Shown: piece by piece, positions 1,127 to 28,578 of the stretch | Layout of the letters: each line of letters starts with the position of its first letter | Numbering within the stretch: the first letter of the stretch is position 1 | From: a virus | DNA length: 28,578 bases | Direction: 5' to 3' (one strand) | Virus record (IMG/VR): IMGVR_UViG_3300010354_000448 | Span: 1 to 28,578 of that record | Translations under genes and position numbers: made by a program | Notes under the pieces: model-generated | The model's input: only the letters and a program-made list of their open reading frames with translations | The model's database searches: none | What the model was told of the DNA's origin: nothing

Positions 1127-1333
1127 TTAGTAGTTACCGCAATTAATGGTTAGACCATTTCTTTCTATAACATTGGAAGCAACCCAAGCACCAACAGTAG
1201 AATCATATTGTAGAAGTGCTCCATGTTGTGCATTCAAAGCGTCTACATCGCTCAATGACGACATTTTTTGTGCAGCATTAGCTGAAACTGTAATGACTTG
1301 AGGTTGATTGGAAATAGTAACCTTTGTTTTCAT
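1127..1333 (-). CDS. Small virion-associated protein, 68 residues
   Basis: This 68-residue protein starts with MKTKVTISNQPQVITVSANA. It has a strong AGGAG ribosome-binding site 7 bases before the ATG, lying inside the end of the upstream gene. The ATG overlaps that gene's TGA as ATGA, so the two are probably translated together. The middle reads LSDVDALNAQHGALLQYDST followed by VGAWVASN. This 'DVD...GALLQYDS...WV' pattern is common in tail-fibre and neck-associated proteins of T4-like cyanophages, where it recurs as a short beta module. The protein ends NGLTINCGNY. It sits directly before the fibre gene, so a role as a fibre adaptor or accessory is a reasonable inference. No enzymatic motif is visible. 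Confidence 0.75.
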   Translation of the reverse strand: MKTKVTISNQPQVITVSANAAQKMSSLSDVDALNAQHGALLQYDSTVGAWVASNVIERNGLTINCGNY

Positions 1334-1665
1334 TTAGTTACTCCTGGATTGATGGTAACAATACCTTCTATAACTCTAGTCTTTTTTCCAGCTCCATTAG
1401 TGATTACTACATCATATACATATCTTCCGTGTTCCATATTAGTGGTTTGGGAAGAAGTCAAATCAAGAATAATGGTTCCAGTTGTCCTTACAGTTGCAAA
1501 TGATACTGTAAAATCAACTGATGTGCTGCTATAATAAGATTTTCTTATTTTAGCAGTCCCAGTATACCCAGTCAAATCCCAAGGGCTATTATTATCATTA
1601 TAAATGGTAATTTGAGCGTTAAAATCAGTTCCCTGGTCAATATATAAGTTGTGAGCAGCTGCCAT
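1330..1665 (-). CDS. Small beta-sandwich-like structural protein, 111 residues
   Basis: The protein begins MAAAHNLYIDQGTDFNAQIT and contains WDLTGYTGTAKIRKSY, then alternating hydrophobic strands, and ends IEGIVTINPGVTK. The pattern 'QGTDF...W DLTGYT..A.IR' followed by a closing 'Y.YDV.IT.G.G...R..EG...I.P..T' resembles the small immunoglobulin-like or BppU-N-type beta-sandwich proteins found in many phage tails. That comparison is from memory. No ribosome-binding site lies within 20 bases of the ATG. Instead a T4 late-promoter octamer lies only 8-15 bases upstream and a second one about 33-40 bases upstream. It heads a short set with the 68-residue gene (ATGA overlap) and the fibre gene, which suggests a job in fibre attachment. 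Confidence 0.78.
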   Translation of the reverse strand: MAAAHNLYIDQGTDFNAQITIYNDNNSPWDLTGYTGTAKIRKSYYSSTSVDFTVSFATVRTTGTIILDLTSSQTTNMEHGRYVYDVVITNGAGKKTRVIEGIVTINPGVTK

Positions 1666-1672
1666 TTAAATT

Positions 1673-1680
1673 TATTTATA
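1673..1680 (-). promoter_or_regulatory. T4-type late promoter octamer TATAAATA, start-proximal copy
   Basis: The minus strand carries an exact TATAAATA, the consensus of T4 late promoters read by the phage sigma factor gp55. It ends 8 bases before the ATG at 1665. Transcription from it would start almost at the ATG, giving a leaderless or nearly leaderless mRNA. The other copy at 1698-1705 is better placed, so this one may be a chance AT-rich match. Confidence 0.4.
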
Positions 1681-1688
1681 TTATAAAG

Positions 1689-1712
1689 TCTCCCTAATAT
1701 TTATAAGGAGAC
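1689..1712. terminator. Inverted repeat between the 54- and 111-residue genes; possible weak terminator
   Basis: GTCTCC (1689-1694) and GGAGAC (1707-1712) form a perfect six-pair stem around a 12-base AT-rich loop. On the minus strand the stem is followed only by a short TTT, so intrinsic termination would be weak. The loop holds the TATAAATA octamer, so the element could separate two transcription units by ending one and starting the next. Confidence 0.4.
1698..1705 (-). promoter_or_regulatory. T4-type late promoter octamer TATAAATA in a hairpin loop
   Basis: An exact TATAAATA lies on the minus strand, 32 bases upstream of the ATG at 1665 and just after the stop codon of the 54-residue gene (1721). 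This is the expected place for a late promoter driving the 111-residue, 68-residue and fibre genes. The octamer sits in the loop of the inverted repeat at 1689-1712. Confidence 0.6.
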
Positions 1713-1720
1713 CTTTCTAA

Positions 1721-1885
1721 TTACTTAACTTGCCAACCACTCAAATTTATCCAAGTCTGTTGACTGTGGTAATAGAGTTGTGCAAATTTTTTCGCAATAT
1801 CTTTTGCATCCGATTCATTTAATGTATCAATATCGTTTAAAATCTTTTGCAAAGCAAATTGTTTATTCAGGGGCAATTCTGTCAT
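1721..1885 (-). CDS. 54-residue protein of unknown function, NblA-like in pattern
   Basis: The frame runs from ATG 1885 to TAA 1721: it opens MTELPLNKQFALQKILNDID and closes WINLSGWQVK. It overlaps the stop of the upstream gene as ATGA, which argues that it is a real, coupled gene. The protein is predicted to be almost all helix, with a break around residues 21-26 (TLNESD). Its length, the N-terminal LxLxxQF, the central AKD and Lys, and the Trp-containing C-terminus can be lined up without gaps with NblA, the cyanobacterial phycobilisome-degradation adaptor. Some cyanophages are known to carry nblA. Identity is low (around a quarter, against an NblA sequence recalled from memory), so this is a hypothesis. 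The late-gene setting would equally allow a small assembly or virion protein. Confidence 0.72.
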   Translation of the reverse strand: MTELPLNKQFALQKILNDIDTLNESDAKDIAKKFAQLYYHSQQTWINLSGWQVK

Positions 1886-2085
1886 AATTTTTCCATCAAT
1901 TGTTTCAATAAACCTTTAATTTCCGACAACTCGTTTTCAATTTTATCAATCCTATAAGATTGTTGTTGTCTTGTTTGATACCCTTCCATGTAAGAAGAAT
2001 AATCAGTAGAGTTCGTATTAATTATTGCTCCACTCTTAATATCTCTATAAAGATGTGGATGTCCTTCAACTGCTATCTTATCCAT
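1882..2085 (-). CDS. Conserved cyanophage-type small protein, 67 residues, C-terminal coiled coil
   Basis: The start chosen is ATG 2085, giving MDKIAVEGHPHLYRDIKSGA. It lies one base past the TAA of the DUF4815 gene (2087-2089). A longer reading from 2148 would lie inside that gene and is rejected. The N-terminus 'IAVEGHP.LYRD..SGAI.N' is, from memory, a conserved opening in T4-like cyanophages, and is often followed by a helical tail. Here residues 38-67 (QTRQQQSYRIDKIENELSEI onwards) show a heptad-like coiled coil. The gene has no ribosome-binding site of its own and probably depends on coupling. Its TGA overlaps the next ATG. Its function is unknown; its place suggests a small structural or assembly role. 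Confidence 0.82.
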   Translation of the reverse strand: MDKIAVEGHPHLYRDIKSGAIINTNSTDYSSYMEGYQTRQQQSYRIDKIENELSEIKGLLKQLMEKL

Positions 2086-2086
2086 A

Positions 2087-5000
2087 TTATACTGCCAAAG
2101 CAATTGCCCTAAAGTTACTAATCTTAGGAACATTTGTTTGGTCTGCACTAATCATAACTACCTTGATAGCAAATTCTTTAAATTCGGGTAGGTTTTTAAT
2201 TTCAAAATCAAATGCTCTGTAATCTGTAGAATTTGTTGATGTTGGATATGAAACTGCAGGGACTTCAATGTAATTCATATCGTTAAAGTTTCCGAGATTA
2301 GTATCTCCACTTATTTTTGCGTAAACTTTAATATCAGAGTATTGACCATTCAATCCTTGCTTTCTGACAGCATCTAAAAGAACTTTTATAGAAGTGGATG
2401 TATTTTGTAATGTTACCTTCTTACAAACATATGCAGAATATTTTCCAGAATTTGGCGTCAATTCAGCAGTAGCATCCAATACTCCATTTGTAGTTTTCTT
2501 AGAAATTCTATTTGAAATGGTAATAATTGAAGAACCAGCAACGTCCAAAATAGGACTGATATTATCTTGAGTCGTGGAGAATTTCACATTACACTTTAAT
2601 GAATGTAAAACAGCGGAGAGATAATTTGTAACGTTTGGTTTAGAAGCAATAATTCTAGGAACCGTCAACTCTGTATTCTGTAGATTCTGAATAGGTTGTT
2701 CAGAAATTGTTGAGAACGAAGATGCAGATTCATATAGACTATTACCCTTTACACTTTCAAATCCTACAGAAGCTTCCGTTGAACTTAGAGTGATTAGGTT
2801 CAACTGTGGATTTATTTCTTCGTATGGAATATTTCTTGTCGCCAAAATTGTAGAGCCACCAGAAATGATAGTACTATTTGCATTGAAGACCGCAGATATT
2901 TTGTAGGAATCTAAATCAATAATTTCTGCAATTTGGTGTGTTTTGTTGATTTGATTTAGAGGAATACCATTAATATGATATGAACTGGTAGATGCACCAG
3001 AACTATGTGCAGCTGCAGTTGTATCAAACTGTCCTCTTCCATCTGATGGAATAGTTAAAGTATTTCCAGATACTGCAGTGTATTTTAACACTTCATTATC
3101 AATTAATACATAACCAGGATTTGATGAACTAACTGCAGAACCATTTACAGTTGTCCAAACAGTAGACGAAGCATCCGCAACTGTAATATTTCCAGTAATA
3201 CTTCCAGAAGTAAGATTTGATGAAGTTAGAGTGGTTGAAGCAACATTTGAAACAACTCCAGAAATAGTTACATAATTTTGTGTACTATGCATTCCGTGAT
3301 TTGGATGATAAACTGTAATCGAAGGAGAACCAGAAGTAAAAGATAAAGAATCTGTCTTTAAATTTACGGAAGAAACTGGTTTATTATTAAGGGTACATGT
3401 ATAGGTGGAATTAGTCTTAAATGATGCTCTATTTAAAGTAAATTTAATATCTTCAAATTGGTCAGGTGTCCAAGTTGACATATTCTGAGATTTAAACAAC
3501 GAACCAGCATATGGTTGTTTGTCAATTTTAAATCCAGTTGTTACGTCGGTTTCAGATAATCTAGATACCCAAATTTTGTAATTTAGTGATGTAGTTCTTA
3601 CAATGAATGCATACTCAGTATCTTGATTTAGATAAACTAAACTTGGGAAAGTAAATTTAGTTGCTACCGAAGCGTTAGAAGAAACGTTAATTGATGATGC
3701 AGGAATAGTTACTTTACTATATGGAACAATGGTATCTGTTAGAATTCCATTTTCCATTGTTCTGATTTCAACAGTTACTGGGTCTACAGAATCTTTGGTT
3801 TGGAAATATAATTCAATGGAAGAAGCAAAAATTCCTCCCAACTGCTCAGCACCAACAGTAAATGATTGCGCCAATGGGTCGCGTGGCGGTGGTGGGGGTG
3901 GAATATATACGGTCTTATAATCTACAATAGGAGTACTTACAATCTCTGCAGTCTTCAATGAGACAATATTACTTGTAAGTTCAATCTTAGTACCTTGGTT
4001 GGTAAAGATTGCAGATGTACTCGAATTGGAAATTCCTTGAATTGTATTGCCACCGATGTCATCCGTTAGTAAAAATTTAGTATCTCCTGATTCATATTTT
4101 TCAGCAGGAATTAATAAGAACGCTTTCAAATCTCCAGTAGAGTTTGATGTAACTCTAGGAGAGGTTAAAGTAACTTTACCTTTTGCCTGAGAAGTAACTC
4201 CAGTAATGTAAAATTCTGAACCCAATAGTGTTGGATTTACATCTGTACCATCCTCAGTAGTTAAGGTATCAATTGAGAGATATGTGGTAGTTGATGAATA
4301 AGTTCCCGAAGGAGACGCTACAACTTTAGCCTTTACAGTAGTGGAAGAAGTTGTGGTAGTTAATGTTGGTTTTAGATATACACTTTCACCAACCACAAAG
4401 GTTCCAGTTCTTTCTGTCATGCCGACGATATCTCTTGGGAAAATTACATCATTTGCAAGTTTTCCATCAATAAAGAAATGGTGATATGTACTTGGTTTTA
4501 ATCCATTAGCAAACACCTCAATAACAATAGACCTGATATATTTTGTAGAACTAATAGCGTCAAAAGTATCTCCAACTGTAATATCTTGCGCTAAAGTTTT
4601 AAAGGAGTTGTTTACTCCAGTTTTCTTTTGTAATTGATTTGTTCCACCACCTTTAGCAGGAGTATTACTAACTACGGTCCAAGCACCCCATTGGTCTCCA
4701 GATGCACCACTCTTATCGAACAAGAATTTGATTGGTTGGGTGTAATCTATTGTTTGAGTTTGACCTTGTTTTTTAACAGTATCGTACCAAATATCTTTAC
4801 TTGGGTCCAACTGCATTGTACCGTTCCATTGAACTAACTGGAAAGGTTGGAGATTTTCTACTCTACTTGCATATTTCTGTTGTGCATATACAACTTCTGC
4901 ATATGGTAAAGTTACCAAATCTCCAGTTTTTGTAGTTGTTGAGGAAGAACTATAATCAAGTCCAATGTTATTAACATATGGATATGGTCTAACTAGAGCA

Positions 5001-8000
5001 TTTTCAGTATCAATTGATGCAGAATAATTTGGATTGTTTAAATCTGCAAGAGATAAGGTTTTAAAGTTATCTACTACAAATCCTGTCTTAAATCTATTAT
5101 TTCCTTGTGCATCTAAGATATTAAGAGAATTTGTACTTACTTCCAGTAAGTTTAAAGAAGTTAACTCCTCAACATTTTGCAATCTACGGTCTATTGAACC
5201 GATATCTCTCATTGTATATCTCTTGTTATCTTCAAGAGATATTGTGGAAGAATTTACATTCTTCATATATGGTGGAATAGTAATAGTTGCAAGTAATAGA
5301 GACCCATTGACATTTTCTGGAGCTTGCGGAGTTAATGATTCTGCTCCTTTTGCAACCAATAATCTGTTATTCTCGTTAAGGAAAATTTTATCAATTCTTC
5401 CCAAGTAGTAGTCATAATCTAAGGTTACAGCTTCTCCAGGAAATGCAAATGCACTAATCTGTTTGGATACAGTATATACATCAAGTGCAGATTGAGTTTC
5501 TGTGTATGGAGAGGTAATTGTTCCTCCGCTACCAGTAGATGCAACTGACTCAAATCTAAAATCTACAATATCAGAATATGGAGTTCCATCATAAGTTGTT
5601 GGAATATTTTCATAGTTAATCTCTGAAGTATTGTATGAAGAGATACTATACAAATCATTAGAAGTATTTGAGTGTTGGAAGTAGTCAAATACAACAATAA
5701 ATTGATTTGTTGGAATTGGTCTATTATCAAGTCTTACTAATTTAGAAATATTATAAGAATCTGAAGTATCGTTTTTAACTAGAGCAAAATCATTTGTGAT
5801 ATCTTTATATGAACCATGTTCTGATGATACAATATATCTTCCAACAATGGAAACATCTGCAACGATTTTTACAACATAATTTAAATTTGTACCTACTGGA
5901 AACTTATCTGCAGATAGATATAAAACACTTAGAGTAGTACCAGAAATTTCTATAATTTTTGCTTTGATATTTTCATATGTGATGATGTGTCCAACAATTA
6001 AAGAAGTAGCATCATTAATTACAATCTTATCAAATAACTTATCATTAGTTGTGCTACTTGAAGCAGCCTCACGAATTGCATGAATTTTATATACGTCACT
6101 AAACTTCAATGATATTTCTTTATCTGATTTTCTAGTACCGTAAACAGTATTGGTTGTATTTTTATCTTTATCAACCTTTAAAAATTTAAATTTAGTAGCA
6201 GATTTTGACTTTAGTGAAGGATTGTTAATCCTTACCTTATATGTGATATCTACATTGCTTCCGATTAATGCAGTATCAACTGTAATGTTTACAGATGATG
6301 ACGATACTAGGGTTGCGGTATGAGAAACAATTCCAGAAGAATTTGTTACTAAAATATCTGATGCTGAAAATGTTACATCTGCAGTTGACGATAGGGTTAT
6401 AAGTCCACCAGTTCCTACAGTTCTATTTGCAGTTAAAGTTTTATAATATGAAAAATCATTTGTAGATTTTACAGGAGTTGGTAATACCTTTGAGTAAAAA
6501 TTTTGATTGTAAATTTTTAATTTTGGAACTAACTTCTTAACGTTATAGTAAGTTCCATTTGAAATAGTTCCAGTTACAGTTACATTTGTACCACCAGAAG
6601 CTATTGCAGAAATTACTACAGGATTACCAGTACCAATTTGAAGACTCATTGGAATTGATAGTTCTGTACTAAAATTAGTTCCAGAACCACTAACTACGTT
6701 AGATGCAACACTAAAACTACTTCCAGAAATAGTAACTGGTTCTAATAAAACCCCAGCATTCAATCCAGCAGATGAAGTAATTTTTGTAATATTTTCAATT
6801 TTATTGTTAACTACAGAACTTACAGTATGCGTGGTAGAATTTCTAGAATTAGTAAATGTAAGTCCAGAAGAAATGTTACCCGTAACTTGAGACAAAGTAA
6901 AGACTGCAGAGTTTACAGATTCTACAACTGCCTGAGAACCATTGTTGAAAAATACAAAGTCACCAGCAGAAGGAGCTCCTGTAGCGTCACTAACAGTAAC
7001 GACACTGTACATTGTCACATCAGAAACAAAAAGTTTCTTACCAGAAACTAAAGCAATTGCTCTCGCTTTACCAATAATAACATCACTACCACTAACAACA
7101 TTTTTTAGTTGAATTACTGTATTTGGAGAAACAGAACCAATGACAGTATTTAAATCAAAATAAGAACCAAATGATGCAACTAGTCCCTGATTGTTTAGAG
7201 ATAAAGATTTTCTTGGTTTATCAATAGTTAAATATTTTTTCTCAATACTGTTAACTTCAAAACCTTTAACGTAGGCCTTACCAGGAGAAACTTCTACGGT
7301 ATAATATTGACGACCATCAATTGCATCTTCTCCGTCACCGACAGCTGGAGTTCTATTTAAAACTTTCTTATTGGTATCAGAAATGTCATTCAGAGAATAT
7401 ACTCCACCATTCTCTCCGTCATCATAAGTTTCTTTAACTTTTACTTCAAAATCTGTTAAGGTATAGTTACCAGACTCATCATATGTTCTTCTAGCAAGAT
7501 TTCTATCTAATTCGGAATAGATACTGCTATCTACTAGTTGAATTACTTCACCAGAATTCAAACGAAGTAATTCGATAAATGAAGAATCTGTAGAAAAATT
7601 AAGGTCTTGTTTAGATAGATTTGCTTCAATTTGAAGTCTATCTGCTCCAGGAGCTGTAAAATTAGAAGTTCCGACTGCATTATCATAAAGAGTCGTATCC
7701 TCTTCAGCGGTAATAATATTCTCTGAAATTGATAATCCTACTTTATAGGAAGGGAAATTATTATATTGGTCTAAAATTATAGATTGACTTGGTACATCTA
7801 CAAAGAATCCACGAATAAAATAAACACCTGCAGTAATATTAGCAGCACTACCAATATATGCAGATGCATTCTGTATCGCAGTTACTGCAACTTGATTATT
7901 TGACTCATCTACCAGTACTTCATTATTTGCAAATTTACTCAACTGAGTACCATTTACAAGATTTCCACCAGAAACATATTTTACATATAGGGTAATCGTA

Positions 8001-8365
8001 TCTTTTTCTGATTCCGATGCACTAATTGTATTGACAACTTTTGCTTTTACGTTGGAGGAAACCCCTCTTAGAGTTTTACCAACTAAATCTGTTCTAAAAC
8101 TCTCTACCTCTAATCCAGAAACAAGAGGTTGTAGGAGAACGGCATTGTATTGCAAATCATAACCAACTTGGCCAGGAATAACCACAGACCCATCTTTGAA
8201 TACATGCTGTCCAAATTTCTCAATCTGATTTTGTAAAATCGATTGAAGTGTAGTTAATTCCCTGGATTGTAGAGGAGTTCCAGGCTTAAACAATACCCTA
8301 TGATAATTTTTATCTTTATCAAAATCATCAAAATATGGTTCTAAATTGAGTTTAAGCTCTTGCAT
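2087..8365 (-). CDS. Giant DUF4815-type virion structural protein, 2092 residues (baseplate periphery or short fibre)
   Basis: The protein starts MQELKLNLEPYFDDFDKDKN, followed by YHRVLFKPGTPLQSRELTTL and LQNQIEKFGQHVFKDGS. This is the recognisable start of the DUF4815 family found in T4-like phage structural proteins. The long middle is Ser/Thr/Val-rich beta sequence. Around residues 1488-1502 a run of six prolines leads into RDPLAQSFTV, then a jelly-roll-like part (GGIFASSIELYFQTKDS). Near residue 1687 is HPNHGMH, and after that PLNQINKTHQ and a DLDSYKI segment. It follows gp8, where T4 has gp9, gp10 and gp11, so it may replace those peripheral baseplate or fibre-holding proteins; this is inferred from gene order. 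An AAGG ribosome-binding site lies about 10 bases before the ATG, in a 43-base gap after gp8. Confidence 0.88.
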   Translation of the reverse strand: MQELKLNLEPYFDDFDKDKNYHRVLFKPGTPLQSRELTTLQSILQNQIEKFGQHVFKDGSVVIPGQVGYDLQYNAVLLQPLVSGLEVESFRTDLVGKTLRGVSSNVKAKVVNTISASESEKDTITLYVKYVSGGNLVNGTQLSKFANNEVLVDESNNQVAVTAIQNASAYIGSAANITAGVYFIRGFFVDVPSQSIILDQYNNFPSYKVGLSISENIITAEEDTTLYDNAVGTSNFTAPGADRLQIEANLSKQDLNFSTDSSFIELLRLNSGEVIQLVDSSIYSELDRNLARRTYDESGNYTLTDFEVKVKETYDDGENGGVYSLNDISDTNKKVLNRTPAVGDGEDAIDGRQYYTVEVSPGKAYVKGFEVNSIEKKYLTIDKPRKSLSLNNQGLVASFGSYFDLNTVIGSVSPNTVIQLKNVVSGSDVIIGKARAIALVSGKKLFVSDVTMYSVVTVSDATGAPSAGDFVFFNNGSQAVVESVNSAVFTLSQVTGNISSGLTFTNSRNSTTHTVSSVVNNKIENITKITSSAGLNAGVLLEPVTISGSSFSVASNVVSGSGTNFSTELSIPMSLQIGTGNPVVISAIASGGTNVTVTGTISNGTYYNVKKLVPKLKIYNQNFYSKVLPTPVKSTNDFSYYKTLTANRTVGTGGLITLSSTADVTFSASDILVTNSSGIVSHTATLVSSSSVNITVDTALIGSNVDITYKVRINNPSLKSKSATKFKFLKVDKDKNTTNTVYGTRKSDKEISLKFSDVYKIHAIREAASSSTTNDKLFDKIVINDATSLIVGHIITYENIKAKIIEISGTTLSVLYLSADKFPVGTNLNYVVKIVADVSIVGRYIVSSEHGSYKDITNDFALVKNDTSDSYNISKLVRLDNRPIPTNQFIVVFDYFQHSNTSNDLYSISSYNTSEINYENIPTTYDGTPYSDIVDFRFESVASTGSGGTITSPYTETQSALDVYTVSKQISAFAFPGEAVTLDYDYYLGRIDKIFLNENNRLLVAKGAESLTPQAPENVNGSLLLATITIPPYMKNVNSSTISLEDNKRYTMRDIGSIDRRLQNVEELTSLNLLEVSTNSLNILDAQGNNRFKTGFVVDNFKTLSLADLNNPNYSASIDTENALVRPYPYVNNIGLDYSSSSTTTKTGDLVTLPYAEVVYAQQKYASRVENLQPFQLVQWNGTMQLDPSKDIWYDTVKKQGQTQTIDYTQPIKFLFDKSGASGDQWGAWTVVSNTPAKGGGTNQLQKKTGVNNSFKTLAQDITVGDTFDAISSTKYIRSIVIEVFANGLKPSTYHHFFIDGKLANDVIFPRDIVGMTERTGTFVVGESVYLKPTLTTTTSSTTVKAKVVASPSGTYSSTTTYLSIDTLTTEDGTDVNPTLLGSEFYITGVTSQAKGKVTLTSPRVTSNSTGDLKAFLLIPAEKYESGDTKFLLTDDIGGNTIQGISNSSTSAIFTNQGTKIELTSNIVSLKTAEIVSTPIVDYKTVYIPPPPPPRDPLAQSFTVGAEQLGGIFASSIELYFQTKDSVDPVTVEIRTMENGILTDTIVPYSKVTIPASSINVSSNASVATKFTFPSLVYLNQDTEYAFIVRTTSLNYKIWVSRLSETDVTTGFKIDKQPYAGSLFKSQNMSTWTPDQFEDIKFTLNRASFKTNSTYTCTLNNKPVSSVNLKTDSLSFTSGSPSITVYHPNHGMHSTQNYVTISGVVSNVASTTLTSSNLTSGSITGNITVADASSTVWTTVNGSAVSSSNPGYVLIDNEVLKYTAVSGNTLTIPSDGRGQFDTTAAAHSSGASTSSYHINGIPLNQINKTHQIAEIIDLDSYKISAVFNANSTIISGGSTILATRNIPYEEINPQLNLITLSSTEASVGFESVKGNSLYESASSFSTISEQPIQNLQNTELTVPRIIASKPNVTNYLSAVLHSLKCNVKFSTTQDNISPILDVAGSSIITISNRISKKTTNGVLDATAELTPNSGKYSAYVCKKVTLQNTSTSIKVLLDAVRKQGLNGQYSDIKVYAKISGDTNLGNFNDMNYIEVPAVSYPTSTNSTDYRAFDFEIKNLPEFKEFAIKVVMISADQTNVPKISNFRAIALAV

Positions 8366-19000: not shown

Positions 19001-19676
19001 TATTTTTTAACCTAATCTTTACCTTATTATCATTAAATAAAATTTTAAATAAAATTTTATGTGAATTTAAACTTCCCTTAGAAGTATAAAAACTCTTAAT
19101 ATTTTTTAGAAAAGAAGATAGACTTAAATCCGAAACTAAATTCTCTGGAATATTAGGTGCAATTTCAGATTTAATTCTTCTGAAAAATTCTTCTGTAAAG
19201 GTGTATGCTAAGTTTTCAACTACATCATTTTGATTATGAATGGATGATGCACTTGAGGTATAGACTACTTGAGAAACAGGAATAGTTTCAACTAAGAATG
19301 CGCTGGTTCCCCTAATACAATTTAAAAATTGTGTTGAAGTTTTTGTTTTGTAAAATATAATTTCTTGATTAATTCTAATATATCCATTTGATACTGGAAA
19401 TCCACTAGTATCTTCTACTGTGATTGTACTCGCAGTATCACTAATATTTGCGGTTAATTTTGTGCTTTCACTAAGTTCAAGTTTTGAAAAATATGAGATA
19501 TTGTAGTAATCTAAGATATTTTTTACAATATCTAAAGGTTGATACTTAACTTCCTGTGACTCATAGTAAGAGGACAAAAACGAAATAAATTTTGGAGAAG
19601 CTTCTCGTACAAACGAAGGAAATTGACTTTCAATCAGGGTTGAAAGATTAACAATTTTTTCTTCTAGGTGGTTCAT
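10050..19676 (-). CDS. 7: Giant baseplate wedge protein, gp7-like, about 3208 residues
   Basis: The start chosen is ATG 19676 (MNHLEEKIVNLSTLIESQFP), because it overlaps the gp6 stop as ATGA; a TTG two codons earlier is possible. The N-terminus continues SFVREASPKFISFLSSYYES, a helical opening recalled from large cyanophage baseplate proteins. The gene sits exactly where gp7 belongs, between gp6 and gp8. T4 gp7 is about 1030 residues, so this protein is three times longer. The extra length is repetitive beta sequence. GxGYxxxP-type glycine-rich repeats occur near residues 240-310, 945-1108, 1540-1690 and 2976-3175. About ten 'NGV.Q.P..YT..G..ITF' repeats occupy residues 2005-2900. Short 'IN.EII.Y...C.RG' modules occur near both ends. 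In T4, gp7 runs along the wedge and initiates its assembly with gp10. Assignment to gp7 rests mainly on position and the N-terminus. Confidence 0.75.
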   Translation of the reverse strand: MNHLEEKIVNLSTLIESQFPSFVREASPKFISFLSSYYESQEVKYQPLDIVKNILDYYNISYFSKLELSESTKLTANISDTASTITVEDTSGFPVSNGYIRINQEIIFYKTKTSTQFLNCIRGTSAFLVETIPVSQVVYTSSASSIHNQNDVVENLAYTFTEEFFRRIKSEIAPNIPENLVSDLSLSSFLKNIKSFYTSKGSLNSHKILFKILFNDNKVKIRLKNRGTGAKLKLTNYVGSIGSYEIVNGGSGYDNRVVGGNFVNAPIIDIIGSGTGTKVNNVYPLTAQMSVTSINSSGSITGVQIDNVGEGYVGPITARVRERSFTENQVVRNISGTGYARVENWDFESNEVTLYDVVGYFKVLDELIGEGGENPRAFISVAYPVTDINRKGNPSIQTISLEPTTENPKDFTIRPSSATYATKTVIHCELIKNAIYKTVNGKLVKPSIISLVQQSDKDSGIPGVSIESSEFNLVGDNIYEFGVESNFDINKLRLIPTTRLTVSKASINSSTTAFILTADDLYGFPLINGKVYINGNVINYESRSCNQLFGCTYTGTSTFSLFAGDEVYAYSRVDGNKTYNYFITGYLDGNSSDATAPVFKLLGIPSKPIVDDGGSLYTETNFETVDTLTSSDSQIKYTSWNLNYQTTIADGSLNSFGNTPSVQSVYEYEDKVYVSSSGIPPYLTSIVGRKTCKNQKLLKRVNIKSNPGKGGGKLTSKGIGITVDGVEIQSFKGNRVEYGPLTSISIGTGGDYKVPISSDNLSFNYLKYPVFLIEGVTNPLTNTSLQTLFYISSYISKINVSNLDSSYLTGYLSKPNISVVNNNPTKTATFGQSNLIYLTNTIQITSTTFEPGEKVTYTSSVPTVAGLINGSVYYVGVTGTNTYKLYYTKDDALALNSNDVSFTDSYNTSTTPIAFTGTLKTDNQNPLVFEEAQLDISFNELTKTIDNIFVRNSGKGYIVAPSIIISGGGKSPQTIPLASSSGEIVSFRGSLISRSNVGKSTENEIDITGLISTNFSSVPKISVSAGVGATMSVYTANGAISSAELNDTGDYYFTEPTVQISGIGSNASVRAIISATTGKLTGFSIVNPGSGYTILPVATIVPSGSGALVSGKIKSWTFNLSNVLNTDDYGGYTFEDSDDDTTGALNFQQMTLKNLPESLNDRQYLVLKTTSNLNSQYQVTSGTHSKVIGWAYDGNPIYGKYGYSNPLDSTSSITAITSSWQLKSTRTGGPSVVSYPLGSFVEDYELSTSSVLDKHNGRFCVTPEFPHGTYAYFATDAFPYFIGLEYYSNADDFNICGTRRNDRIPGSFRRINNSANQYYPKEFKNTCRTILNTRNVTPGSIDSVIIEDGGINYKTFDKLIVDNSDTFGVGFSAFVSQISGKSISSYAFDSGKIVFTTSSNHGLSKGDYVYIDYVRNVNYAETTLSPITNLNYFNNAKFVSSFVSTAKFSYDRNNLQPYFNKDAITFTSTEIRLNTNLLPTILYLHLNSATYQLVINKYSLLGASVVQSVTDTTFTVNQPTDFTAAGLTSIIYTTKSASASGKIAEITIANQGQNYRKLPEVIGVNSSSGTGALIQLNSNSIGKLSNFDYSTIGDKFISNKTVNYDLKIPYTAKITNNFEITSIKVLSGGSNYSTSDIVKVNGVVDSNCEFAIVAGTGTITEIKVLKGGFNFSKVPTITVESSTGSGANFAAVLSRKKILRNDYITFNGTSSSNKALINNFDYKSSTIQFTVVNGSVSENDIVYSKDFQVYGNVVSIRRAKVHTKSQAITSLQSKFIDNKGFLNDYSQRIHDSKYYQDWSYLISSPRNTSEWRSEVIKNTHPSGFRVFGKNILEKRTSFFTNSNDVFSSSVIFRANLQNTANLNLKLTGCKKQTIQVSDPGAFAIGDYIYGNSTESKGIILSITEGYIEILPYGDSVFQVGEFIFKVTDNFVFGIDTETLFNISFFSGILQRPRESYYVSNNNYIPRFTILPTDEVVNYKLTNTTELLDVTTLTAGTTVFNLSKDLLPYIPSNKENLLLSINGVVQDPDSFSLSGSTITLSSAVTTTATAFVLVQSNLRKLTFTGSGPTFTLNYTPASNCQLLIFTRAVGQSHLLTDYTVSGNTVTISESVSASELFGWQINETVTCSQITNLTISGNRVSDYRPCSIKRFTEKIESSSAKNSNSFYEIEKETLDGTMSATADTVYGFDSRFVYTNPEYSSSYVEVLNPITYVTGTSTYNLTTFDGVTYTPINGKKSLMVYVDNLVLDPDDYTITTSTITFTNTYAAGKTFTLVDFVSGYLANNTNNRCADLDRLNVVQNGTRVTFNLSDNGVPQYVNNVGDIFVIKNNLLKRPDAVTQSLTDNKITLTTAPIASDNVKLVYFNRQLLPVKTKNVILDPFNCYNSTTTTYPLTLSGLTFTPVSVYNLLICRNGVFQRPGIDYTLSGTNVVFSEAPTPGSDITVIYSYNNINTNSYITDFTASTTTTTVNLGMTPPNADDLFVLRNGVFQNPTEDFTVTGSTLTFTTSVTSGEQVFIMYTHASAEIGISTVSGSTITLSSSITTNQDGLVLFINGAPKFNNKDFTVSGSTVTLLNGQTVDSGTTPFVMQYVTSTIIDNINDCPDGVKTQFKLLYNGANLIASDIVSDADILISVNGVVQHPGTQYTLSTNRGLVNFVTAPQHTDEIFMIRMHGNQLISLTSNGGSNTVYNLSSAVTSQQEDVVVFSNNQWTFAELNGYSWTTTSRVTLSTAQTTGNIFAIKFNGLFKLLDSIHTPFNSVNTKFNLFLSEQNFVPAGNIDSNNIPSESSLLVLKNGKILDSAVDYTLQGDIKSQIQFTTAPTSSDKISIKVVGSFLKLQSITSGFGGKIYDLKSSPTANYYPNAVISRPREHENQIIVLKNGNIQSPLYDYYIDNNKLVFTNNVTSGPLIVMDYMGTTEDMIVYNTIKQVSVGDTIYISGESTERTVTEIISPTVLKTATYSGTSPSGFTSTSTISQGKLSAISITTGGVGYPSPTILRTKGTGNSAKTLTTINPILGKSITTPLTIQYPGYNLYTTQEIVPTTYAYVYRKKLISSSTVRKATTLTSNINSTVETISVGNTSSFDKNTPVVTVSSNTGAGATFRVFVSKGRIRKIEVLTGGSGYDDRDISLALSGGGGSGCVLEPTLDNSGTITSVTVNNGGIGYDTFRVIIDNEVIEYTDTTLTQLLGCTRGSSPTSHTSTTLVYSDNFV
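10140..10760 (-). repeat. C-terminal glycine-rich GxGY repeats in the gp7-like protein
   Basis: Three degenerate copies of a strand-turn unit are visible: SITTGGVGYPSPTI, IEVLTGGSGYDDRDI and VTVNNGGIGYDTFRV. Each is preceded by a Gly-rich 'GAGATF.V' or 'GSG' turn. The same unit recurs in the N-terminal and central parts of the protein (about 18740-18960, 16340-16840 and 14600-15060). This is a protein-level repeat; the DNA copies are diverged. Confidence 0.7.
10940..13650 (-). repeat. About ten degenerate repeats of 75-110 residues in the gp7-like protein
   Basis: Reading along the minus strand, units such as LLLSINGVVQDPDSFSLSG, LLICRNGVFQRPGIDYTLSG, LFVLRNGVFQNPTEDFTVTG and ILISVNGVVQHPGTQYTLS recur. 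Each is followed by a strand like 'ITF..AP....I.I.Y'. More diverged copies include LMVYVDNLVLDPDDYTITT, LVLFINGAPKFNNKDFTVSG and IIVLKNGNIQSPLYDYYID. This is a well-known type of phage tail beta module, here in an unusually long tandem series. The outermost copies are the least certain. Confidence 0.78.
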
Positions 19677-21790
19677 GAGCAAATATTCGGAGTCTCTGGT
19701 TCGAAGTCGTCTATTGTAGGATTATCTGCTGGCGATGAAGGTGTAGTTCCATCTGGAGTAGTAATCGTGTCACTAGGAGGTGTGGTTGTAGTGCTTCCAT
19801 CTGGATTTGTAGTAGTAGTACTTCCATCTGGATTTGTGGTAGTAGTACTTCCATCTGGATTTGTTACTGTAGTTCCTGGAATGTTTATCACTGCAGGATT
19901 TCCAGTTGGGTCACCAGTTGCAATTCCAGGAATAACAACATCCGTTGTTGGAAGAGTAACATTAGGGTCTAAAGTATCATCGGTTGCATCTGTCGCATCG
20001 ACAACATCACTTGCAACAATTTCTAGAGCTGGATAAGTATCCGTGCTAGTTGTAATATCGGCATTATCTGGAATAACATAGATATTTATTGGTGTATCCT
20101 GGCATGCTCTAATAGCAAACTTAACTTTTCCAGTTTCATAATCTATAGTTCCCACAATTCCAATAATTCTTCCAGAAAGTGTTGAGATGTAGATATTTGT
20201 ATCTTTCTCACATCCAGCAAAGTCATGACTTAATGCAGCAAGAAAAACAGGTTCATTAACTTCTCTTAAACAAAATGGGTCACTAATTAATGTGTACTTT
20301 CCAGTAATTTTGTTTCTAAGTTTTGTATAAAAATCTAAATTATACTCGTAATAAATGTTGTTATATAAATTTGTAGAGCGTTTAAAATAAGTTTTTAATA
20401 AAACAAATCTAATCGCAACATCAATGTCTTCAATCAAACAAAGAAGTTTGGTAGAGGAATAAATCCCACCAAAATTTTTAAATTCATCGTTTTCATTATA
20501 AGTTGATACAACTTTTTGAGCTAAAGTTTTAATGAGTGACGAAGATTTTTTTGTCTTTTTTGAGTCATATACAATAACTGGTTCAATGACAATTGTAATT
20601 AAATTTGCATCTAAAATTACTGGAGTAATGGAACCAACAGTATAATTATTAATTTCTTTGGTTATTCTCTGTTTTTCATATTGACTGATTACATCACCAA
20701 TTTTTGGTTTTATAAAAATAAAGACTTTTCCATATTGTGGTGGAGTTTGTTGCTCTCCGCCAGAAACTCGGATTAACTCAGCATTAGAATAAATGTTTTG
20801 AATGATACTTTCGTAATCACTGGTTGTAACTGCTCTTTGTTGTGCAGCATAATATCTTGGTGCTCTATACTTAATAGACTTGATTGGTTCAAATTCAGAA
20901 CCACCGTCCGATTTAGAACTAATTAAAGTTGGAGTTATATTACTAATTGCAATTGTCGTATCAGTAACTCCTGGATTCTGACCCTTAACAGTTCCAATAA
21001 AATTAAAAGTTCTGATGTTGTTAGCTAACGAACCATTCGTTATCACATAAGTTATCTTAACAATTTCACCATTTTCTAATTTTCTTCCAATTACGCTATC
21101 TCCAAAAATTACTTCGTATTTTTGGTCTTGAATTTCCTCAACAAAGAAAACCTTATCAGAAGACGAAACTCCAACAATACTATACTTTCTTGTATATTCA
21201 TCCTCTACATCGGAGGTTGAATCTGCAATAATTGAAACTTTAACGGTAGATGCATCTACATTATTGTTTGGAATGAAAAATCTTTGATTTTCGTTAGAAG
21301 AATCTACTGTGTATGTAATGGTAAATTCTGTACCTTCAATGAAAGTTAGATTTGAAAAGGTAACACTATTTGACCCATATGGATTTAATCTAACTGGGTC
21401 TCTGGAAATAAAGGTATATGACTTATTATTTTGAGTTGCTGCAAATACAGTTCCAGAAGAAAGTTCTACACTGTCGTAAGATGAAACACCAGTTACAGTA
21501 ATATCAAAAGATACTTTTGAGCAAGTATAAGAATTTGGAGTATAACCTAATTTCTTTGCATGAGATACAACATTGTCTCTCAAAACGGATGTATCCAAAT
21601 TCAATTCATTTGCTGCCATATTGATGTTGTAGGCAGAATACATCGAATTGTATGCCAAAACATCGACCAACATCGAAAGATTAGAACCTTCGAAGTCGTA
21701 ATCCTGGAAATCTGTTTTAGTTTTTATGAATTGTTTTATTGAGGCTTTAATTTCCTCAAATTCTAATGAAGCAACTGATGGTAGTTCCAT
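19673..21790 (-). CDS. 6: Baseplate wedge protein gp6, 705 residues, with a repeat-containing C-terminal tail
   Basis: The N-terminus ELPSVASLEFEEIKASIKQF is followed by DFEGSNLSMLVDVLAYNSMY and NMAANELNLDTSVLRDNVVS. This is the hallmark of gp6 in the baseplate J-like family. A second J-like segment, RAPRYYAAQQRAVTTSDYES followed by GGEQQTPPQYGKVFIFIKPK, lies in the middle. gp6 forms the inner ring that joins neighbouring wedges and surrounds the hub. The last 80 or so residues are a low-complexity Thr/Asp/Pro tail containing three copies of NPDGSTTTT; T4 gp6 (about 660 residues) is not known to me to have such a tail. The gene follows gp25 after three bases, and its TGA overlaps the gp7-like ATG, so the three wedge genes are tightly coupled. 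Confidence 0.95.
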   Translation of the reverse strand: MELPSVASLEFEEIKASIKQFIKTKTDFQDYDFEGSNLSMLVDVLAYNSMYSAYNINMAANELNLDTSVLRDNVVSHAKKLGYTPNSYTCSKVSFDITVTGVSSYDSVELSSGTVFAATQNNKSYTFISRDPVRLNPYGSNSVTFSNLTFIEGTEFTITYTVDSSNENQRFFIPNNNVDASTVKVSIIADSTSDVEDEYTRKYSIVGVSSSDKVFFVEEIQDQKYEVIFGDSVIGRKLENGEIVKITYVITNGSLANNIRTFNFIGTVKGQNPGVTDTTIAISNITPTLISSKSDGGSEFEPIKSIKYRAPRYYAAQQRAVTTSDYESIIQNIYSNAELIRVSGGEQQTPPQYGKVFIFIKPKIGDVISQYEKQRITKEINNYTVGSITPVILDANLITIVIEPVIVYDSKKTKKSSSLIKTLAQKVVSTYNENDEFKNFGGIYSSTKLLCLIEDIDVAIRFVLLKTYFKRSTNLYNNIYYEYNLDFYTKLRNKITGKYTLISDPFCLREVNEPVFLAALSHDFAGCEKDTNIYISTLSGRIIGIVGTIDYETGKVKFAIRACQDTPINIYVIPDNADITTSTDTYPALEIVASDVVDATDATDDTLDPNVTLPTTDVVIPGIATGDPTGNPAVINIPGTTVTNPDGSTTTTNPDGSTTTTNPDGSTTTTPPSDTITTPDGTTPSSPADNPTIDDFEPETPNICS
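19794..19874 (-). repeat. Three tandem 27-base repeats at the 3' end of gp6
   Basis: Units lie at 19794-19820, 19821-19847 and 19848-19874. The first two differ at one base and the third diverges at its end. Each encodes the nine residues NPDGSTTTT on the minus strand, with a degenerate partial copy further downstream (around 19747). The period is a multiple of three, so copy-number change would keep the frame. Confidence 0.9.
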
Positions 21791-27280: not shown

Positions 27281-27443
27281 CTGGGGCGCTCTGGGAAAAT
27301 TTTTTTATTTTAAGAGTATATTTAGAGGTCTCTTGGAGCCTGTTATAGATTAGGGTAGTTAGGGGTTTTTGCATCACGGGGGCGGGGACCGCCGCTCGGG
27401 CACCCCCGAGCAACTGGCCTCCCGTTGACTGGCCCCTGATGGG
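27281..27443. other. Intergenic junction between AT-rich and GC-rich DNA
   Basis: No gene is supported here on either strand. The low-coordinate half (27295-27370) is AT-rich with a run of Ts and an AGAGGTCTCT palindrome. From about 27375 the DNA turns GC-rich and holds G-tracts and the hairpin at 27395-27410. It may contain transcription stop signals for the GC-rich block or a recombination joint. Confidence 0.6.
27395..27410. terminator. GC-rich hairpin at the edge of the GC-rich block
   Basis: CTCGGG (27395-27400) and CCCGAG (27405-27410) form a perfect stem with a four-base loop (CACC). It lies 34 bases past the stop of the last ORF of the GC-rich block (27444). No run of Ts follows directly on the minus strand, so it is at best an imperfect intrinsic terminator. 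Confidence 0.35.
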
Positions 27444-27722
27444 TCACATGGCCTTAGAGCACTTGCTGCCCGAGCGGACTGCATCAGCACCAGGCACACT
27501 GCCGTGCTGGAAGGCACCCTTAGGTGCGGCGTTCGCCCAGAGGCGCTGACCGCTGAGTGCCTTCACACCTCGGCGAGAGGGGCGGAGCACGGTGTAGCGA
27601 ATCTCGCCACGAGCGTCAGCGATGAGCAGGTCGAGCTTGGTGGCGGTGGAAGCGTTGAGCATGGGTCGGTTCGTTTCGATGTGGCTACTATAGAGGGCAG
27701 GCGTCACCACCTGCCATCCCAT
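27444..27722 (-). CDS. Small protein of unknown function, up to 92 residues, GC-rich codon use
   Basis: The frame opens MGWQVVTPALYSSHIETNRP at ATG 27722. A GTG at 27707, which overlaps the TGA of the upstream ORF as GTGA, and an ATG at 27663 (MLNASTATKLDLLIADARGE) are alternative starts. The most protein-like part is KLDLLIADARGEIRYTVLRP followed by a basic RRGVKALSGQRLW. The C-terminus is small-residue rich (SVPGADAVRSGSKCSKAM). There is no membrane segment or known catalytic motif. Codons favour G or C in the third position, unlike the structural genes further left. I do not recognise a family. It is the last gene of the small-ORF block. Confidence 0.6.
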   Translation of the reverse strand: MGWQVVTPALYSSHIETNRPMLNASTATKLDLLIADARGEIRYTVLRPSRRGVKALSGQRLWANAAPKGAFQHGSVPGADAVRSGSKCSKAM

Positions 27723-27862
27723 GTGTCAGTTGCCCATCCGTCCCTCTCCCTGCGGCGGGCATCATAATCCTCTGCCATCATGATGTCATCATGCTCCCGA
27801 TCTAGGAAGCGGTCATCATATTGGGGATGGCACATGGCGCGATAGGATTGAGCACAGGTCAC
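27704..27862 (-). CDS. Small charged protein of unknown function, 52 residues (longer start possible)
   Basis: A frame open from ATG 27970 (88 residues) ends at 27704. The start chosen here is GTG 27862, because it overlaps the stop of the 22-residue ORF as GTGA and avoids a long double overlap. A further ATG lies at 27835. The protein contains CHPQYDDRFLDREHDDIMMA and EDYDARRRERDGWATDTWDG, and is highly charged (Asp/Arg/Glu) with several Trp. It has no known motif. If the longer form is correct, its first 36 residues overlap both the 22-residue ORF and the end of the 104-residue gene in other frames. Confidence in the frame is fair, but in the start it is low. Confidence 0.5.
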   Translation of the reverse strand: MTCAQSYRAMCHPQYDDRFLDREHDDIMMAEDYDARRRERDGWATDTWDGRW

Positions 27863-27927
27863 AGGAATTTCCTCTCGAAAGCGCGAAACATCATGAACAG
27901 AAGCAATAGCGTAATGTAGCCAGTCAT
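27859..27927 (-). CDS. Candidate 22-residue hydrophobic mini-protein
   Basis: ATG 27927 overlaps the TGA of the 104-residue gene as TGATG, and the ORF encodes MTGYITLLLLFMMFRAFERK plus FL. The first 14 residues could span a membrane and the end is basic. Its stop overlaps a GTG as GTGA, giving a chain of coupled starts. The chain and the composition are suggestive of a real small membrane protein, but the size gives no statistical support, and the same bases are open in the longer frame of the next gene. Confidence 0.35.
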   Translation of the reverse strand: MTGYITLLLLFMMFRAFERKFL

Positions 27928-28241
27928 CAGTTGAGACGCATACCAGAGAAGAAAGGAATCGTCGTGCCATTCATATTCACGAACCATTCAAAGTTCTTCT
28001 GAAAGACTCTCTCACCAGGGAGACCATTTGCTTCCAGGATTGCATTCAGGCGAGACTTTGTGGTGACAGTTTGCCAACCACCATCGAACAATTCAATCCA
28101 GGTTTCGCCTATCCGAGCAATCAGATTGCCATGCAGGAACACATCAGTGACATGGGAACATGCGATGACTTCGGTGTTAGCGAGTTTCCAATCTTTGCCG
28201 GCAGCGATTGCGGCATTCATCAGACGTTCGATCTTACGCAT
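27927..28241 (-). CDS. Phage-type small conserved protein, 104 residues
   Basis: The sequence opens MRKIERLMNAAIAAGKDWKL, then VFLHGNLIARIGE, DGGWQTVTTKSRLNAILEAN and VFQKNFEWFVNMNG, ending FFSGMRLN. This order ('MRKIE..M..AI....W...NTEV....V.LHGN.IA....DGGWQT.TTKSRLNA') is, from memory, a widespread phage small-protein family found in both T4-like and T7-like cyanophages and in many other phages. Its function is unknown. It is the clearest sign that the GC-rich block is phage DNA rather than host DNA. The gene has no ribosome-binding site and its TGA overlaps the next ATG. Such genes are usually early genes in phages, unlike the late genes to the left. Confidence 0.85.
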   Translation of the reverse strand: MRKIERLMNAAIAAGKDWKLANTEVIACSHVTDVFLHGNLIARIGETWIELFDGGWQTVTTKSRLNAILEANGLPGERVFQKNFEWFVNMNGTTIPFFSGMRLN

Positions 28242-28282
28242 GTGATTTGTTTGAACTGAGATCAGTATACAGGCGGGAGGGG

Positions 28283-28429
28283 TCAGCGGGAGCAGTCTTG
28301 TGACACTTCACAGAGCGTCACAGCGACCCTATCAGCATGGGCCTTTGCCACTTGAATGGCCGACAGGCCGAGACCAGCGCCAACGTAGAGCACCAGAGCG
28401 AGACCAGCGAGGCGAATAGCGTTTGCCAT
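28283..28429 (-). CDS. 48-residue protein with one hydrophobic segment
   Basis: ATG 28429 gives MANAIRLAGLALVLYVGAGL, then GLSAIQVAKAHADRVAVTLC and EVSQDCSR. Residues 5-25 are hydrophobic and could be a membrane span or an uncleaved signal. The C-terminus has two Cys residues (TLCEVSQDC) that might pair outside the cytoplasm. The start is two bases past the stop of the upstream partial gene, which supports coupled translation. Codon use is GC-rich like its neighbours. No family is recognised; a small phage membrane protein is the likely class. Confidence 0.65.
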   Translation of the reverse strand: MANAIRLAGLALVLYVGAGLGLSAIQVAKAHADRVAVTLCEVSQDCSR

Positions 28430-28431
28430 GA

Positions 28432-28578
28432 TCAGTAACCGTTCAGAAAGTCAGCAAGTGCTTCACGATACTCAGCCTCGGTTTGGTAGACTCGAGCACC
28501 GATTTGGCGAGGGTAGGTTGCCTTAGGGGCAGGAGCGTTGCTGGGCTCCTTGCCCTGGGCGTAGAGTTGAGCGATGTA
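28432..28578 (-). CDS. C-terminal 48 residues of a small protein cut by the right edge
   Basis: The frame is open from the right edge to TGA 28434-28432. Its visible end is YIAQLYAQGKEPSNAPAPKA, TYPRQIGARVYQTEAEYREA and LADFLNGY. It has an Ala/Pro linker followed by an amphipathic helix. The stop is two bases before the next ATG, in the style of the neighbouring small genes. The start is outside the window, so neither length nor family can be judged. Confidence 0.55.
   Translation of the reverse strand, partial: YIAQLYAQGKEPSNAPAPKATYPRQIGARVYQTEAEYREALADFLNGY

Follow-up and report, generated by a model that had tools for sequence, protein, structure and literature searches.

The window analysed here is a 28,578-nucleotide stretch of viral DNA (IMG/VR record IMGVR_UViG_3300010354_000448). 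The genome is that of a T4-like cyanophage, as gp6 and a 230-aa protein have their best matches in Synechococcus T4-like phages; megablast of the whole window found no near phage. The following features surround a 54-aa ORF resembling NblA, the small adaptor protein through which cyanobacteria target their light-harvesting antenna for breakdown:

2087..8365, minus strand: VrlC-type structural protein, 2092 aa, first gene of the local operon (ORF list; synteny)
1882..2085, minus strand: upstream virion protein, 67 aa, phrog_473, T4-GC 112 type (profile match; overlaps the ATG of the NblA-like gene by ATGA)
1721..1885, minus strand: NblA-like gene, 54 aa, phrog_27081 family (ORF translation, PHROG match, alignment against shuffles)
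1698..1705, minus strand: TATAAATA, T4-type late promoter motif (exact motif scan)
1685..1715, minus strand: strong hairpin with a 12-bp stem (dG -16.4 kcal/mol for a 56-nt stretch, z -4.0)
1673..1680, minus strand: TATAAATA, T4-type late promoter motif (exact motif scan)
1330..1665, minus strand: downstream L-shaped tail fibre assembly-type protein, 111 aa, phrog_3304/1084, T4-GC 211 type (profile match, synteny)

The minus-strand order is thus VrlC-type protein, phrog_473 virion protein, NblA-like protein and tail fibre assembly-type protein (phrog_3304), followed by tail-fibre genes; within this cluster of tail genes, two virion genes immediately precede the NblA-like gene. The same gene order occurs in the phages Bellamy, SynMITS9220M01, S-SM2 and S-SRM01. 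The mechanical ORF list gives the 67-aa virion protein as an 88-aa ORF with a GTG start at 2148; the ATG at 2085 should be the start, as in homologues.

The NblA-like ORF runs from position 1885 to 1721 of the window on the minus strand, and its 54-aa product is MTELPLNKQFALQKILNDIDTLNESDAKDIAKKFAQLYYHSQQTWINLSGWQVK. Its start ATG shares ATGA with the stop of the upstream gene, and a GGA lies a few bases 5' of the start. Isolated phages carry homologues at the same place, and close metagenomic relatives have a median dN/dS of 0.19 (936 non-independent pairs), which indicates purifying selection. The overlap, the same-place homologues and the purifying selection together show that the ORF is a genuine gene.

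Exact TATAAATA motifs occur just twice in the window, both times in the 55-nt gap 3' of the NblA-like gene, where the hairpin also lies. These elements make the gap a probable late-operon boundary and suggest that one late transcription unit closes with the NblA-like gene and another opens with the tail fibre assembly gene. The motif occurs within 120 nt 3' of the gene in two of 80 metagenomic relatives (the best 80 of 130) and is therefore not a shared feature. At the other end of the window, positions ~27360-28578 have ~51% GC versus 33% elsewhere, and a 104-aa protein at the right end is 79% identical to one of lake phage DSL-LC02, whereas gp6 is only ~35% identical to its best matches; this end is either part of a chimeric contig or a recent import. 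At 19673-20020 on the minus strand, the gp6-like baseplate protein has a C-terminal extension of ~110 aa that lies outside the region alignable with other phages and contains NPDGSTTTT tandem repeats.

Several searches place the 54-aa protein in a family of cyanomyovirus NblA-like proteins. A PHROG profile search matched it to phrog_27081 (E 3.2e-7), which also matches S-TIM5 (4.6e-32), the annotated NblA of S-SCSM2R (1.3e-15) and picocyanobacterial host proteins (3e-7), and which includes cyanomyovirus genes named NblA in annotations or publications (S-SCSM1, S-SCSM2R and S-TIM5). With tblastn the window protein found Bellamy gp115, SynMITS9220M01_087 and S-SM2_101; a search from Bellamy gp115 then yielded 25 records, all from Synechococcus phages, including S-SCSM1, the S-SCSM2R 'NblA' and S-TIM5, with an E value of 2e-11 against the S-SCSM1 'phycobilisome degradation protein'. 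A phage-family HMM built without the window protein scores it 41.1 bits, the maximum of 5000 shuffles being 11.8, and the near-invariant residues of the family alignments (F10, I19, D20, L37, Y38 and Q42) are all kept. On these alignments and scores, the window protein belongs to the cyanomyovirus family that holds the published S-SCSM1 NblA and S-TIM5. A single-sequence scan of viral contigs with the window protein found no relative, and a scan with the family alignment found 130. The 80 best of these, chosen by similarity to the tail-operon group and hence not a census, were kept for counts of gene context.

Every phage isolate found to carry a family member infects Synechococcus. That no Prochlorococcus phage was seen to carry one is weak evidence, since about one occurrence was expected among the 18 such records with the neighbour gene and none was seen. 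In a published HHpred analysis, the S-SCSM1 protein was assigned to NblA along with seven homologues, six of them marine and one freshwater (PMC9602691). These homologues would be S-SM2, Bellamy, SynMITS9220M01, S-B05, S-B43, S-SKS1 and S-SRM01, a list that fits although the mapping is our own; very probably, the tail-operon group is already among the cyanomyovirus NblA-like genes covered there.

Direct comparison with canonical NblA gives a weaker signal. Aligned locally with 60 NblA sequences, the window protein matches best over 46 columns, with 12 identities and no gaps, much as the earlier note on this DNA, made from its letters alone, had stated. Its BLOSUM62 score of 53 is reached by three of 2000 shuffles (32.4 +/- 4.5), a resemblance beyond chance. 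An NblA HMM built here scores the protein at a weak 6.6 bits, reached by 10 of 5000 shuffles. A Pfam search with the window protein returned no PF04485 match at E up to 10, so that the profile search the earlier note had proposed gave no significant score. Neither the protein nor a small alignment of it retrieved anything meaningful from Pfam, NCBIfam or the PDB sequences. That note had counted such a result as a sign against kinship; the sign is present for PF04485 itself but is outweighed by a chain of intermediate relatives, described below.

Other details in the letters fared variously. The LxLxxQF at residues 4-10 is indeed there, within an ELxLxxQF pattern. AKD does occupy residues 27-29, but the next Lys residues are at 32-33 and not at 30. 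Trp residues occur at 45 and 51; a Trp near the C-terminus had been listed with the NblA-like pattern, an argument dropped here because Trp is not conserved across the family.

The AlphaFold2 single-chain model of the window protein, predicted from an alignment of the window and viral-contig rows only, has helices at residues 6-20 and 24-49 (pLDDT 85). A Nostoc NblA served as control; the 49 residues of it that formed the query are identical to the solved 1OJH sequence, and its predicted helices span 9-22 and 27-55. The helices of the two proteins nearly coincide at the three-residue offset of the gap-free alignment, and the model has the short first and long second helix of the NblA helix-turn-helix. 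The proposed helix-break-helix architecture is thus borne out by prediction, in register with NblA. Foldseek with the window model found nothing useful in PDB or BFVD and no NblA; since the true NblA model likewise returned no NblA from PDB, this null says nothing either way.

The intermediate relatives are chromosomal. With the phage-family alignment, a search of 386 cyanobacterial genomes found matching small proteins in genomes of small size that have phycobilisome genes, at up to about five per genome; from their size and phycobilisomes we read these genomes as picocyanobacterial. This host family (L239-L261) has 50-60 aa and the pattern LxLxQQF...ID...LYxxQ; the members tested match no Pfam model, and the host-family genomes checked are mostly without PF04485. 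In hhalign, the phage family matches the picocyanobacterial family at 98% and the latter matches NblA at 92%, the direct comparison of the phage family with NblA giving 31.5%; for both comparisons involving NblA, the real score exceeded that of all 200 column-shuffled decoys. Most of the similarity to NblA falls in helix 1. Two proteins bridge the families: G200/L227 scores 29.2 bits on PF04485 (cut-off 25) and 25.3 bits with the phage-family HMM, and G188/L250 scores 23.1 bits on PF04485, 50.2 with the host family and 25.9 with the phage family. The first of these (L227/L269, on G200 contig C1) reads MSDLTFEKQF...LYLGQQ and, scoring equally with canonical NblA and the phage family, is a useful bridge. 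These profile comparisons show kinship of the phage family with the picocyanobacterial family and, at a greater distance, with canonical NblA. A tree built on 60 columns favours none of three placements of the window protein, with phage, host or canonical NblA (AU p 0.37-0.51).

An unrelated short helical hairpin, like NblA only by coincidence of composition, would account for the missing Pfam match and the weak direct HMM score, and helix hairpins are common. The family score, far above the best of its 5000 shuffles, the proteins that score with both families and the decoy-controlled comparison nevertheless make this reading highly improbable, and we consider NblA-type ancestry of the window protein very likely.

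The distribution of the host family follows that of phycobilisomes. All 22 genomes with a clear host-family match carry 6-9 phycobilisome-subunit matches. Among 78 sampled genomes with at least six such matches, searched for both families, 75 carry PF04485; the three that do not (G146, G182 and G196) all carry the host family, which only one of the other 75 (G188) also matches. The host-family genomes probably form one lineage, so this co-occurrence is a pattern and not 78 independent tests. A weak host-family member (L261/L271, G230:C1:67840-67944) lies in a Prochlorococcus-like 1.7-Mb genome with only two phycobilisome-subunit matches, possibly an NblA-like protein in a cell without phycobilisomes. 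Synechococcus WH8102 is described as having a divergent nblA-like gene and Prochlorococcus none (PMC7439483); the WH8102 gene may belong to the picocyanobacterial family.

The place of the gene raises the question of a virion function. Among the 77 evaluable metagenomic relatives (from the best 80 of 130), a phrog_473-type gene lies directly upstream in 76, overlapping by 4-20 nt, and a tail fibre assembly gene lies downstream in 68. The location among tail genes, which the earlier note had thought unusual, is therefore correct but normal for the closest relatives. This fixed position with overlapping frames is what a small tail-assembly or virion protein that merely resembles NblA, and is part of the tail operon, would show. 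A virion structural protein would also be expected to be constantly present in the collinear tail operon, and this was not found: the slot between the same two tail genes is empty in the otherwise collinear phages S-CAM9, DSL-LC02, S-SCSM2R and Sf-FS3, of which S-SCSM2R and Sf-FS3 have a family member elsewhere in the genome. Such isolates argue against an essential virion part. Family members adjoin terminase genes in S-SCSM2R, L024 and L044, and others lie among auxiliary and other small genes. At L024:172-363 and L044:3971-4168, as in S-SCSM2R, the gene directly precedes the terminase large subunit gene, a second late-region site. Because the gene comes and goes between tail genes and has relatives on picocyanobacterial chromosomes, it looks like cargo at the tail slot and not like a required virion part; a tail or virion protein appears improbable.

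The residues bear on what such an adaptor would deliver. NblA is held to bind ClpC via an N-terminal motif, whose residues the source does not specify, and phycobiliproteins via a C-terminal one (PMC4103541). The conserved N-terminal pattern held to bind ClpC appears to be present in the window protein. For the C-terminal one, we take Leu51 and Lys53 of Anabaena NblA to be the residues held to bind phycobiliproteins; in the gap-free alignment Leu51 corresponds to L48, a match, and Lys53 to G50, a mismatch, and several relatives end before the Lys53 position.

A protein of NblA-type descent might thus still dock a Clp chaperone and deliver another host or phage protein, or block the host adaptor. 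Besides the unconserved Lys53 position and the early ends, this fits the strong conservation in the family of a helix-2 motif, KLYxKQQE, that canonical NblA lacks, the centring of the NblA similarity on helix 1, and the several host-family paralogues per genome, whose targets may differ. Against it, published viral NblA of other lineages degrade phycobilisomes (as summarised in PMC9602691), family members occur only in phages of phycobilisome-bearing hosts and the host family goes with phycobilisomes. We regard a re-purposed adaptor as unlikely, though it is the main rival. A more specific form seems quite unlikely: in a group of T4-like cyanophages, an NblA-type Clp adaptor retained in the tail operon would be produced along with the virion and, lacking the Lys, would feed some other protein to the host protease while virions assemble.

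The explanation we favour, with modest confidence for the whole, is a divergent viral NblA-type proteolysis adaptor of a picocyanobacterial/cyanomyovirus lineage that degrades phycobiliproteins. The grade, with retargeting as main rival, reflects a kept N-terminal pattern and Leu51, a missing Lys53 and the relatives that end earlier. The protein would be translated with tail proteins late in infection and form a helix-hairpin dimer whose N-terminal LxLxxQF helix contacts the host Clp chaperone; it would then deliver phycobiliproteins for degradation, which would supply amino acids and lower light harvesting during virion assembly. The weak direct NblA score, the missing Pfam match, the Lys53 mismatch, the helix-1-centred similarity, the tree that favours no placement and the virion genes on both sides all count against this. 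Of the original proposal of an NblA relative, a divergent NblA-type, helix-turn-helix protein among tail genes stands, and a direct Pfam NblA match does not.

Phage NblA, including the cyanomyovirus lineage, is already known, and the literature searched yielded no published phycobilisome-degradation assay for that lineage. The conserved placement in the tail operon, the host family in genomes without canonical NblA and the absence of the C-terminal motif appear worth adding; no description of these three points was found in the literature searched, which did not include a 2025 study of viral NblA (Nature 648:434). Viral NblA is topical because it ties cyanophage infection to loss of light harvesting. 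Pfam does not detect the lineage and most isolates have it annotated as 'hypothetical', so its members are undercounted in surveys that rely on PF04485. The conserved late tail-operon place predicts late expression, unlike that of an early auxiliary gene. By its occurrence in genomes without canonical NblA, the picocyanobacterial family is a clear candidate for the adaptor of marine Synechococcus.

Compared with known systems, the window protein is like canonical NblA (PF04485; 1OJH, 2Q8V, 2QDO, 3CS5) in length, helix positions, gap-free alignment and LxLxxQF, but has no significant direct profile score and does not conserve the Lys53 position. The picocyanobacterial family shares its pattern and size but is chromosomal and multi-copy. 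Members of phrog_27081 (S-SCSM1 ORF237 QFG06501.1, S-TIM5, S-SCSM2R NblA) agree in sequence family, size, T4-like genomes and Synechococcus hosts; the window copy has diverged, no relative found exceeding ~58% identity to it over 39 residues, begins with an LxLxxQF that is closer to the host form, and sits in the tail operon instead of among auxiliary genes. Bellamy gp115, SynMITS9220M01_087, S-SM2_101 and S-SRM01 QPX48163, all annotated hypothetical, are homologous (28-45% identity) and sit as in the window, with the T4-GC 112 virion gene in front and the T4-GC 211 tail-fibre assembly gene next in line, but lack LxLxxQF: the three marine copies have NLSKSF and S-SRM01 has SIDKLF where the window has PLNKQF. 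The NblA of T7-like cyanophages (S-TIP37 type, phrog_27006) is also a viral NblA of Synechococcus phages; unlike the window copy it passes PF04485 (29.2 bits), lies beside an exonuclease gene and falls in another PHROG, and thus represents a separate lineage.
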